Positions 31,274 through 34,967 of a stretch of 64,000 bases of DNA are shown piece after piece. How positions within the stretch are numbered: position 1 is the stretch's first letter; every line of letters begins with the position of its first letter. Both the position numbers and the translations under genes were made by a program. The notes under the pieces are model-generated. The model did no database searches. It had not been told where the DNA came from and worked only from the letters and a program-made list of their open reading frames with translations. Source of the DNA: Acidimicrobiia bacterium (GTDB taxonomy: Bacteria; Actinomycetota; Acidimicrobiia; IMCC26256; PALSA-610); NCBI GenBank assembly GCA_026002935.1, contig BPGH01000001.1, forward strand, positions 2,693,250 to 2,757,249, in the 5' to 3' direction.

Positions 31274-32977
31274 ATGAGGGCAGCGACGGGTCGAGGCCGG
31301 GCGCGCGGCGCCGCGGTGCGCGCGCTGGCGATCCTGGCCGTCGCCGCGTTCGCGGCGAGCGGCTGCACCGCGGGCGGCGACGACGAGGACGGTGGGCAGC
31401 CCGCGCCCGGCGACGGCGGCGAGGGCGGCGAGCTGCCGCTGATCTACCAGGAGGCCGTCGAGCAGGGCGTCGAGGACGAGATCGACTGGGGCGACACCTG
31501 CGACACCGAGCGCGGCCGCCTGAAGGTCCCGATCGTCGGCGCGGCGCCGTGCATCGAGCCGTGGGAGGAGGGCGCCGACAACGGCGGTGCGACCGCGCAG
31601 GGCGTGACCGCCGACGAGATCGTGATCGCGCTCTACAAGGGCCAGCCCGACCCGCTCCAGAGCGCGATCGTCGAGGGCGCGGGCGCCGACACCGACCCCG
31701 AGCTCGTCCACCAGACGGCGATCGACTACCTGCGGATGTTCGAGGACCTCTACGAGACCTACGGGCGCAAGCTCCGGATCGAGACGATCGAGGCCACGGG
31801 CGGGCCGGCCGACTCCACCGCCGCGGTCGCCGACGCCCAGAAGGTGATCGACCTGAAGCCGTTCGCCGCGATCGGCGGGCCCGGCCAGACGCCCGCGTAC
31901 TGGCAGGCGGTCGTCGACGCCGGGATCCTGTGCGTCGGGGGCTGCTCGGTCGCCGAGCCGTGGGACGCCGTCGAGGACGCCGCCCCCTACCTCTGGCCGA
32001 CCGCCCACGCGCCCGAGCAGGCCGACGCGCACCTCGTCGAGCTGATCGGCAAGCAGCTCGCCGGCGAGCCCGTGTCGTTCGCCGGCGACGAGTCGCTCAA
32101 CGGCCAGGAGCGCGTGTTCGGCTGGGTGCAGGCCGAGACCGAGGCCGGCGAGTACGCCGAACGCGTCGAGGCGGCCACGGCCCGCCTCGAGGAGGAGTAC
32201 GGCGTGGAGTTCGCGACCACGACCAGCTACATCTACGACCCCGCGAACGCCGCCCAGATCGCGACGACGACCGTGCAGCGCCTCAAGCAGGCGGGCGTGA
32301 CGACCGTCGTCCTGTCGACCGACCCGCTCATCCCGGCCGACATCTCGAAGGAGGCGACGAAGCAGGGCTACTTCCCCGAGTGGGTGCTCGGGCCGAGCGT
32401 GCTCATGGACACGACGATCTTCGGGCGCCGCATGGACCAGGAGCAGTGGTCGCACATGATCGGCATCTCGCTGCCGGCCGCCCGTGGCGAGCGCGAGATC
32501 GGCGACTCGTACCGCGTCTACGAGTGGTACTACGGCAAGGAGCCGCCGGTGAACAGCCAGGCGGTGATCATCCCCGGCCCCGCGCAGCTGATGCTCGGCA
32601 TCCACCTCGCCGGGCCGAACCTGACCCCCGAGACGTTCCGCGACGGGCTGTTCCGGTACCCGCCGAACGAGCCCGGCCTCACGTACACCTACGTGTCGTG
32701 GGGCGAGGACCTGTGGGACCGCACCGACTACAACGCCGCCGACGACGCCGGGGCGCTGTGGTGGGACCCGCAGGCCGAGGGCGAGGACGAGGCGGGCAAC
32801 CCCGGGGTGGGGATGCTCCGCTACGTGAACGGCGGGGAGCGGTACCTGCCCGGCGAGTGGCCCGAGGAGCCGCTGCCGTTCTTCGAGGTGGAGGGCTCGG
32901 TCACCGTCTACGACGAGCGTCCCGACGCCGCGCCCGACTACCCGGCCTGGCCCGGCTCCCCCGCCGCGTCCGGCTGA
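31274..32977 (+). CDS. ABC transporter substrate-binding lipoprotein (LivJ-like, periplasmic binding fold I)
   Basis: The 567-residue precursor has an Arg-rich signal peptide ending in the lipobox FAASGCTAGG (Cys near residue 32), then an acidic Gly/Asp linker. The body shows the leucine-binding fold: VTADEIVIALYKG, AAVADAQKVIDLKPFAAIGG, and a hinge-like second lobe with TTTVQRLKQAGVTTVVLSTD. It is about 170 residues longer than typical LivJ, with an extended N-terminal part and a C-terminal tail. As the last gene of the operon, it should deliver substrate to the LivHM fusion. RBS: GGGGGG, eight bases before the ATG. Confidence 0.87.
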   Translation: MRAATGRGRARGAAVRALAILAVAAFAASGCTAGGDDEDGGQPAPGDGGEGGELPLIYQEAVEQGVEDEIDWGDTCDTERGRLKVPIVGAAPCIEPWEEGADNGGATAQGVTADEIVIALYKGQPDPLQSAIVEGAGADTDPELVHQTAIDYLRMFEDLYETYGRKLRIETIEATGGPADSTAAVADAQKVIDLKPFAAIGGPGQTPAYWQAVVDAGILCVGGCSVAEPWDAVEDAAPYLWPTAHAPEQADAHLVELIGKQLAGEPVSFAGDESLNGQERVFGWVQAETEAGEYAERVEAATARLEEEYGVEFATTTSYIYDPANAAQIATTTVQRLKQAGVTTVVLSTDPLIPADISKEATKQGYFPEWVLGPSVLMDTTIFGRRMDQEQWSHMIGISLPAARGEREIGDSYRVYEWYYGKEPPVNSQAVIIPGPAQLMLGIHLAGPNLTPETFRDGLFRYPPNEPGLTYTYVSWGEDLWDRTDYNAADDAGALWWDPQAEGEDEAGNPGVGMLRYVNGGERYLPGEWPEEPLPFFEVEGSVTVYDERPDAAPDYPAWPGSPAASG

Positions 32978-33030
32978 CCCGCCGCCCGGGCGACCCGCCG
33001 TCCGGCCGGCCCGGCGTCCGGCCGGCCCGT

Positions 33031-33147
33031 CCGTGGTCACTGCGGACGCGACATCTCGCGTTGACGGTGACCACGGGCGCAACAGCGCAGGGCCGAACGG
33101 GCCGTGGTCACCGCGGACGCGACATCTCGCGTTCACGGTGACCACGG
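33031..33147. repeat. Two tandem copies of a 46-base hairpin (REP-like) repeat
   Basis: Copies at 33031-33076 and 33102-33147 differ at only two positions. Each has outer arms CCGTGGTCAC and GTGACCACGG, which pair, and an inner ACGCGA-CATC-TCGCGT hairpin. The spacer is 25 bases. They sit between the convergent ends of the binding-protein and acyltransferase genes, so they may also terminate transcription. A 15-base duplication (CGTCCGGCCGGCCCG) lies just before them. Apart from these repeats, nothing else is visible in 32978-33254. Confidence 0.85.
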
Positions 33148-33254
33148 CGGCGAGTCGCGGCCGCAGCGCGGGGCGTCACGGCGACGACTCGCGGCCGCGC
33201 CCCGGACGACCACGCGCCGACGCGCGGGGCCGGGCCGGAGCGGCCGCCGGGCGG

Positions 33255-33893
33255 TCAGGCGTCCGCGCTCGTCCAGCCCGCGCCGGGCACGTGGCGGCGC
33301 ACGACGCGCGCGGGCACGCCCGCGACGACCGAGAAGTCGGGCACCTCGAGGCCGGCGACGACCGCGCCGGCGGCGACGACGACGTGGCGGCCGAGCCGGG
33401 TCCCGGGCAGGATCACCGCGCCGTGCCCGAGCCACGAGTCGGAGCCGATCACGACCGGTTCGTTCTTCCACATCTGGGTGCCGATCGGCAGGTCGAGGTC
33501 CTCGTAGCCGTGGTTCTGGTCGGTGACGTAGACGTAGTGCCCCGTCCACACGTCGTCGCCGATCTCGATCCGCTCGTGGCCGACGATCCCGATCCCCTTG
33601 CCGAGCATGCAGCGGTCGCCGATCGTGATGACCGGGTCGCCGCGCCAGCCCGCCTGCGACGGCATCCCGGCGGAGATGCTCGCGAGCGGCCCGATCGTGG
33701 AGTGCTCGCCGATCGCGATGCGGCCCTCGCCGAAGATCACGGTCTGCGGGAAGGCGATGAGGCTCCCCTCCCCGAAGGAGTGGAACGACCGCGCCCTGCG
33801 GTGGCGCGGGCCGATCGCGCCGTAACGCTGGACGCGCGTCCACAGCGCGTGGATCGCGTCGCCGACGAGGCGCCCCATCTCGTCCCGGAGCAT
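33255..33893 (-). CDS. Left-handed beta-helix (hexapeptide) acyltransferase
   Basis: The 212-residue protein carries hexapeptide turns from about residue 60 onward (VIFGEGRIAIGEHSTIGP, VITIGDRCMLGKGIGI, IEIGDDVWTGHYVYV, VVIGSDSWLGHGAVIL, VVVAAGAVVAGL) and ends with VVAGVPARVVR, the typical closing turn of NodL/LacA-like O-acetyltransferases. The catalytic His is probably in TDQNHGYEDL. It would acetylate a sugar or antibiotic-like hydroxyl. TACCCT (33905-33900, minus strand) is six bases before the ATG, a leaderless start back-to-back with the next gene's promoter. Confidence 0.87.
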   Translation of the reverse strand: MLRDEMGRLVGDAIHALWTRVQRYGAIGPRHRRARSFHSFGEGSLIAFPQTVIFGEGRIAIGEHSTIGPLASISAGMPSQAGWRGDPVITIGDRCMLGKGIGIVGHERIEIGDDVWTGHYVYVTDQNHGYEDLDLPIGTQMWKNEPVVIGSDSWLGHGAVILPGTRLGRHVVVAAGAVVAGLEVPDFSVVAGVPARVVRRHVPGAGWTSADA

Positions 33894-33899
33894 CGGCGC

Positions 33900-33917
33900 A
33901 GGGTAGCGGGCTAGGTT
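33900..33917. promoter_or_regulatory. Back-to-back leaderless -10 elements
   Basis: On the minus strand TACCCT (33905-33900) lies six bases from the acyltransferase ATG. On the plus strand TAGGTT (33912-33917) lies six bases from the GTG at 33924. Only 30 bases separate the two start codons. Confidence 0.6.
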
Positions 33918-33923
33918 CCCGGC

Positions 33924-34967
33924 GTGAGCAGCGCGGCGCTCCCGGTCCGCATCGGCGTCCTGTACGACTTCCCGCAGGGGGACGACCTGTTCGAGCACGC
34001 GCTGCGGCTCGGGCTCGACACGGTGGTGCGGTCGGACCGCGTCGACCGCGGGTTCGAGCTGCTGCACCGGGAGGTGCGCGGCCTGCCCGCGGGCAGCGAG
34101 CACGCGGTCGTGACCGGGTTCCACGAGCTCGCCGACGACGGCGCGGTCGTGGTCGTCGGCCCCTCGATCTCCGACAACGCCCTCGTGGCCGCGCCGCTGG
34201 CGGACGCCCACCGCCTGCCGACCGTCAACTACTCGGGCGGTGAACGCACCCGCTCGGCGTGGATGTTCCACTACCAGGTCGGGTCGCTGGAAGAGGAGCC
34301 GCCGCTGCTCGTGCGGCGCATGACCGACCGGGGCCTGGGGCGTGCGGCCGTCGTGTACGACCGCTCGCCGGTCGGCCGCGGCTACCTCGACGCGTTCGAG
34401 GCCGCCCGGGTGCGCGCCGGCCTCGAGGTCGTCGCGTCGGTCGCCGTCCCCCCGCTGGTGGAGGACGCGGAACCGCTGCTGCACACGCTGCGCGCCGCCG
34501 AGCCCGACGTGCTCGTCTACCTCGGTCTCGGCGTCGCGTCACGCGCGGTCGCGCTGGCGCGCGGCCGTCTCGGCTGGGACGTCCCGGTGCTCGCGAACTC
34601 GGCGCTGATGTTCGGCTACGCACGTCCCGACTGGCGCGACGGCTACGCGGGCTGGGAGTACGTCGACACGGTCGCCGACGACAACCGGGTCCGCGCCGCG
34701 CTGCGGGAGCGCTCGGCGCGCGCGGCGGGCGGGCCGATCGGCTGTGCCGCGTACGACATCGGGCGGCTCGTCGGCGAGGCGGTGGCACGTGCGGACCACC
34801 TCACGCGCACCGGCGTCGCCGAGGGGCTGCGGCGCGTGAAGGGCCTGCCGGCGGCGAGCGGCCACGACGGCACCACGATGGGGTTCGGCGTCTACGACCA
34901 CGGCGCCCTGAAGGGCCCGTTCCTGGTCCTGCGCGCGTGGCGCGACGGCCGCACCGTGCAGGTCTGA
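33924..34967 (+). CDS. Substrate-binding-protein fold (LivJ-like) without signal peptide
   Basis: The 347-residue protein has the type I periplasmic-binding fold: RIGVLYDFPQGDD, ADDGAVVVVGPSISDNALVA, LPTVNYSGGERTRSAWMFH, and a second lobe with GRAAVVYDRSPVGRGYLDAF. No signal peptide or lipobox precedes it; the fold starts within ten residues of the GTG, which is fixed by the TAGGTT -10 six bases upstream. It may therefore act in the cytoplasm as a ligand sensor, or be an orphan. No permease genes adjoin it. Confidence 0.78.
   Translation: MSSAALPVRIGVLYDFPQGDDLFEHALRLGLDTVVRSDRVDRGFELLHREVRGLPAGSEHAVVTGFHELADDGAVVVVGPSISDNALVAAPLADAHRLPTVNYSGGERTRSAWMFHYQVGSLEEEPPLLVRRMTDRGLGRAAVVYDRSPVGRGYLDAFEAARVRAGLEVVASVAVPPLVEDAEPLLHTLRAAEPDVLVYLGLGVASRAVALARGRLGWDVPVLANSALMFGYARPDWRDGYAGWEYVDTVADDNRVRAALRERSARAAGGPIGCAAYDIGRLVGEAVARADHLTRTGVAEGLRRVKGLPAASGHDGTTMGFGVYDHGALKGPFLVLRAWRDGRTVQV

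Follow-up and report, generated by a model that had tools for sequence, protein, structure and literature searches.

The window, the whole stretch of 64,000 nucleotides that was analysed from an Acidimicrobiia genome, contains two palindromic units placed in tandem between the ends of two convergent genes (Table 1). For the upstream gene no Pfam match was found at E <= 1e-5. Both the two 46-base palindromes and their location between convergent gene ends had been described in the earlier note and were confirmed here. The units are identical at 44 of 46 positions, the two differences being T/C and G/C, and lie 71 bp apart from start to start. Over the whole 71-base repeat frame identity falls to 80%, so the linkers diverge much more than the units. 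When folded as RNA, the copies gave energies between −31.7 and −43.5 kcal/mol according to strand and copy, with z between −5.9 and −8.2, a stability attained by none of 200 shuffles on either strand. Long ORFs begin within the 46-mers or cross them on both strands, in line with the spurious reading frames that had been anticipated for them. The intergenic gap gave no match to plasmid and phage records, and the window gave none to Rfam at gathering scores. Apart from the pair, GC-rich tandem repeats of 16–18 bp (32926–33034) span the upstream gene's end and reach into copy 1.

Table 1. Features of the palindrome locus, in window coordinates
Feature	Position	Strand	Description
Upstream flanking gene	31274..32977	+	567 aa; lipoprotein-type solute-binding protein, by eye
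Intergenic gap with pair	32978..33254		277 bp; 5-27 bp in the four readable relatives keeping convergent order
Palindromic unit copy 1	33031..33076		arms GTGGTCAC 33033-33040, GTGACCAC 33067-33074; core CGACATCTCG 33049-33058
Linker between copies 1 and 2	33077..33101		25 bases
Palindromic unit copy 2	33102..33147		arms 33104-33111, 33138-33145; core 33120-33129
Downstream convergent flanking gene	33255..33893	-	hexapeptide-repeat acyltransferase, PF00132

A family of gapped dyads in the genome

Searches of the own genome for the 42-mer with up to three mismatches, and for the 18-base core, yielded no true copies beyond the window pair; the core matched at five further places with three mismatches, one of them inside a family copy. 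Since the unit is confined to the window, a literal count of it, as the earlier note had proposed, would have refuted a multi-copy family, whereas the arms at fixed spacing occur in 30 copies. Counting a whole repeat unit can therefore miss a family. The pattern TGGTCAC-N{14,34}-GTGACCA was found at 26 places in the 3.45-Mb genome, all with a spacer of 26 bases, and at none in the reversed control. With the arms held at that spacing, GTGGTCAC-N26-GTGACCAC, there were 26, 4 and 12 places at zero, one and two mismatches, respectively, against 2 in the reversed control. Most of the 12 two-mismatch places are unlike the family, one of them (C1:985815) lying beside a true copy, and the family was defined as the 30 places with at most one arm mismatch. 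These occupy 16 loci, ten of which hold two or three copies in tandem. A wider dyad pattern with up to two mismatches gave 30 places as well, an agreement in count, and a weight-matrix scan over 516,675 bases returned nothing scoring between 9 and 25.6, that is, no intermediate copies; the copy at the lower end (C1:2577175, score 25.6) has a different core, and the next lowest scored 36.1. Isolated GTGGTCAC appeared four times in 82,670 intergenic bases, with no clear excess between genes. One further place in the own genome (L077:1926) probably holds, by eye, a degenerate copy that lacks one base. If a chance palindrome had simply been duplicated in tandem on the spot, a full unit found twice only would be accounted for, but the 30 copies with common arms and spacing, and the empty reversed control for exact arms, refute this explanation, for which we see practically no chance.

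The plan of the dyad is GTGGTCAC-S-N7-CRRCATGYYG-N7-S-GTGACCAC, 42 bp in length. In symmetrised counts over the 30 copies the arms are almost invariant, position 8 is S, CC/GG is weakly favoured outside them and the centre reads CRR(CATG)YYG. Taking one copy from each of the 16 loci, mean identity between loci is 0.984 in the arms and 0.632 in the 10-base core, while the two N7 stretches (0.359) and the far flank (0.373) stand at the random expectation of 0.363. The interiors do not pair, with 75 of 196 Watson-Crick cells among 28 distinct interiors against 72.6 expected, a number reached by 39% of 5000 shuffles, nor do they show kinship across loci (27 of 417 pairs at 9/14 or above; null mean 31.6). 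Because the arms are nearly fixed, the length is set and the interior is random and unpaired, the conserved feature is a gapped dyad of set length rather than a hairpin. The nested hairpins noted earlier exist in the window pair but do not extend to the family, whose interiors are not complementary beyond chance.

Tandem neighbours resemble each other, unlike copies of different loci. In 11 tandem pairs, differences fall on 4 of 176 arm positions, 18 of 154 interior positions and 5 of 110 core positions (arms versus interior, Fisher p = 0.0007), a count biased toward an interpretation as binding sites, because only copies with no more than one arm mismatch, and pairs differing at no more than four interior positions, were chosen. 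The distances between tandem copies (49, 84, 61, 61, 72, 61, 61, 72, 71, 71, 50, 94, 67 and 71 bp) cluster at steps of about 11 bp, with R = 0.79 and p ~0.0004 for 12 spacings or p = 0.013 for the 8 distinct values, in a post hoc test of a pattern noticed first and against a null whose range of periods was slightly narrower. The phasing is strongest near 11.2 bp, with a broad peak, and at 10.5 bp the corresponding values are p = 0.0015 and 0.045; the distance of 67 bp, one of three between unrelated neighbours, is out of phase. This regularity is only suggestive of binding on the same face of the DNA.

Gene context and history of the loci

According to crude codon-usage gene calls, supplemented by ORFs at L088, eight of the 16 loci lie between unidirectional, five between divergent and three between convergent genes. 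Intergenic DNA by length is 59% unidirectional, 33% divergent and 8% convergent, so that the loci follow the background as far as small numbers and crude calls tell, the three convergent loci comparing with about 1.3 expected. The map of positions relative to gene ends suggested by the earlier note bore out an intergenic placement, convergent at 3/16 loci, but also placed 5/16 in divergent regions. In the same crude calls two copies overlap gene 3' ends. At L078, around position 1630, a glutamine-synthetase-like gene seems frame-shifted, its real end lying near 1917, through either an assembly error or a real break.

These placements bear on two explanations. The dyads might be operators through which one transcription regulator governs a scattered regulon, as their symmetry, fixed spacing and the presence, in divergent regions, of several copies at 30–70 bp from crudely called start codons would allow. 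However, the neighbouring genes mix housekeeping and catabolic functions (ClpC-like, GyrB-type, IspE, GlmU, flagellar, dehydrogenase and Rieske oxygenase, partly judged by eye), and the three loci at convergent gene ends are far from a promoter, which makes operators an unlikely account. A transcribed RNA hairpin, serving as bidirectional terminator or mRNA-end stabiliser, fits poorly and appears decidedly improbable. It would agree with the stable stem formed by the arms, the very stable folding of the window pair on both strands, the several loci at 3' ends and the convergent loci in excess of expectation. Yet a scan for intrinsic terminators over window positions 32500–34200 gave no terminator-like site, the hairpin being stable but devoid of a U-run, the interior neither pairs nor covaries, the arms are fixed in sequence and not in pairing alone, and at ispE–glmU a separate terminator-like hairpin stands beside the copies and is found, by eye, in nine relatives too. 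Lacking a U-run, and with 5/16 loci divergent rather than at transcript 3' ends, an intrinsic terminator is not supported, nor is the double terminator offered in the earlier note.

Comparison with relatives bears on the history of some of these copies. Four relatives have the convergent order of the window locus with a readable gap, of 5, 10, 10 and 27 bp against 277 bp here. They belong to 12 relatives with a genome-search match to the acyltransferase that were analysed by BLAST; in five the neighbour runs in the same direction, and the remaining three comprise an unreadable negative gap (L036), a stretch with no neighbour (L029) and a weak match only (L038). Among the relatives read, the pair is shown to be present only in the own lineage. 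The ispE–glmU gap of 527 bp, with three copies added, compares with 326–493 bp in nine relatives, four of the 13 having no detectable ispE on the stretch. The copies there precede the terminator-like hairpin, followed by what we take to be a small gene and a tRNA-like stretch, all of them kept in relatives as judged by eye, and ispE takes its final 11 residues and its stop codon from the first copy, its tails in the relatives being different. At flgE–flbD the gap of 269 bp hardly exceeds those of six relatives (160–267 bp), and its length therefore provides no evidence of insertion.

Such gains are what would be expected of a mobile palindrome of REP/REPIN or MITE type, in which a transposase or nuclease would recognise the arms as its ends, and the interior would be an unconstrained cargo of set length. 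The gain at the window locus, the three copies added at ispE–glmU with the ispE end encoded by the first, a copy at L086 that supplies the stop codon of its flanking gene (crude gene call), and the scattered, intergenic, often tandem and genome-specific distribution all favour it. Against it, the loci have no common interior, which transposed copies should have unless all were very old, and the arms stay fixed after tandem duplication too. The RAYT-type transposase that the earlier note advised looking for did not turn up either, with no match to Y1_Tnp (PF01797) in this genome, an assembly rated 85% complete, against matches in 5 of 14 control genomes. Mobility by another enzyme is the main rival to a reading as protein-binding sites, possible though doubtful.

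Occurrence in other genomes

A family-wide palindrome, as once supposed, is not what was found: among 14 genomes of the family, which include no same-genus genome besides the own, 6 of the 13 others have arm pairs, 8 in all, never with a spacer of 26. Across 394 other genomes of the class, the dyad with up to two mismatches gave 26 matches in 25 genomes, at most two in each and none exact, whereas the reversed control matched 3 genomes; the matches in G006, G130, G379 and G387 seemingly belong, by eye, to one conserved coding stretch. The 18-base core matched in 5 of 395 class genomes, the own included, and the match in the sole family member among them (G012) was rejected as a unit copy, being a coding segment by its ORFs. 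In viral contigs the core matched 10 stretches, rejected for contexts unlike the unit, and the dyad pattern matched none. In genome contigs the dyad pattern matched two stretches (Accumulibacter and Atopobiaceae), in a collection from which the own record was possibly left out. A literature search, mostly of records without full texts, found no published description of the dyad motif. The dyad family is best read as lineage-specific, seen in one genome.

Families of the same plan with other arms were also sought. In the stretches of G007 (333,984 bases, 5,267 N) no A/T-containing arm pair recurred more than twice. The same-family relative G006 carries a perfect palindrome with arms GCGTCGATAGACCA and a 9-base interior in 8 copies over 398,000 bases (L170:5948, L173:797, L174:4457 and 16020, L176:1633 and 18254, L177:11349 and L179:11025), with all 28 arm bases identical across copies and several gene orientations. 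It was rejected as a family of the same plan, being an unrelated perfect palindrome, and a single viral-contig match, over 16 bases of its arm, does not represent the palindrome. The same genome has a 72-bp tandem array (L182:882-1080) whose unit bears inverted arms, GAGATGGG ... CCCATCTC.

Dyads as putative binding sites and their relation to known systems

Conserved half-sites, constant spacing and a free interior, the marks of dispersed protein-binding dyads, were all found here, and we would give an even chance to the proposal that the window pair is part of a family of some 30 intergenic DNA dyads, particular to this genome, that are putative binding sites of one protein. With arms and length fixed, interior free and orientation irrelevant, the simplest cause is recognition of double-stranded DNA by a protein that touches arms and core. 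The copies would then be double-stranded sites for one sequence-specific protein, putatively a dimer or tetramer in simultaneous contact with the two arms and the core. Such dyads might have spread long ago and been held since by purifying selection on contacted bases and length, while uncontacted bases drifted, a history that fits the absent kinship of interiors. Since the neighbours are unrelated and stand in every orientation, our guess for the role would be chromosome organisation or topology over a single regulon. Counting against binding sites, the own genome also holds tandem arrays of GTGACCAC alone, with periods of 18 bp (L075:2018-2061) and 31 bp (L081:2118-2156), which adjoin full copies and indicate that arms are able to multiply without the dyad.

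More tentatively, and with lower probability, the 42-bp gapped dyad could represent a new kind of chromosomal landmark, each copy being under selection on two 8-bp arms, a core and exact spacing, set in tandem in helical register, and used by a lineage-specific putative protein to organise the chromosome between genes. As arms and length are kept, the interior is random and no Y1 match was found, the copies may mark the very bases that a putative protein touches; if so, the function of an intergenic repeat, through its binder, would become directly testable.

Short palindromes in many scattered copies, with a sequence fixed by a binding protein, are known from matS and parS. These sites measure 13–16 bp, are conserved through their core and are common to several genera, whereas the dyad is 42 bp long, has gapped conservation and is seen in one genome. 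The usual account of REP-like palindromes is that of hairpins with a conserved stem that a Y1 transposase moves. The 30 copies at 16 loci are indeed a short palindrome repeated in intergenic DNA, but their flanks, mostly CCG/CGG, have no GTAG or CGTC tag at one end (GTAG immediately precedes 1 of 30), and no stem sequence is common throughout the hairpin, the interior being unpaired and at random identity. Lacking a Y1/RAYT match and a general GTAG tag, the family is best regarded as REP-like in a wide sense and not as a REP/RAYT member. The REP-like element of the earlier note hence stands as a multi-copy intergenic palindrome, without its RAYT link.

REP elements are multi-copy intergenic palindromes of small size that are frequently paired or in tandem and form genome-specific families whose ends can give a flanking gene its stop (PMC3733652, PMC8266576; further literature, PMC12306157 and PMC2267715). 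The dyads share these features with the GTAG and CGTC families associated with TnpAREP/RAYT. In REP-rich genomes the placement is mostly unidirectional and convergent (PMC3733652), which may set them apart from the dyads, with 5/16 divergent loci in small numbers and by crude gene calls. BIME-2 of E. coli consists of gyrase-binding tandem palindromic units with a proposed role in DNA topology (PMC2817692). BIME units differ from the dyads in that they contain REPs and do so in alternating orientation; the dyads are, like BIME-2, tandem palindromic units between genes, and by analogy a role in topology might be envisaged for them too.
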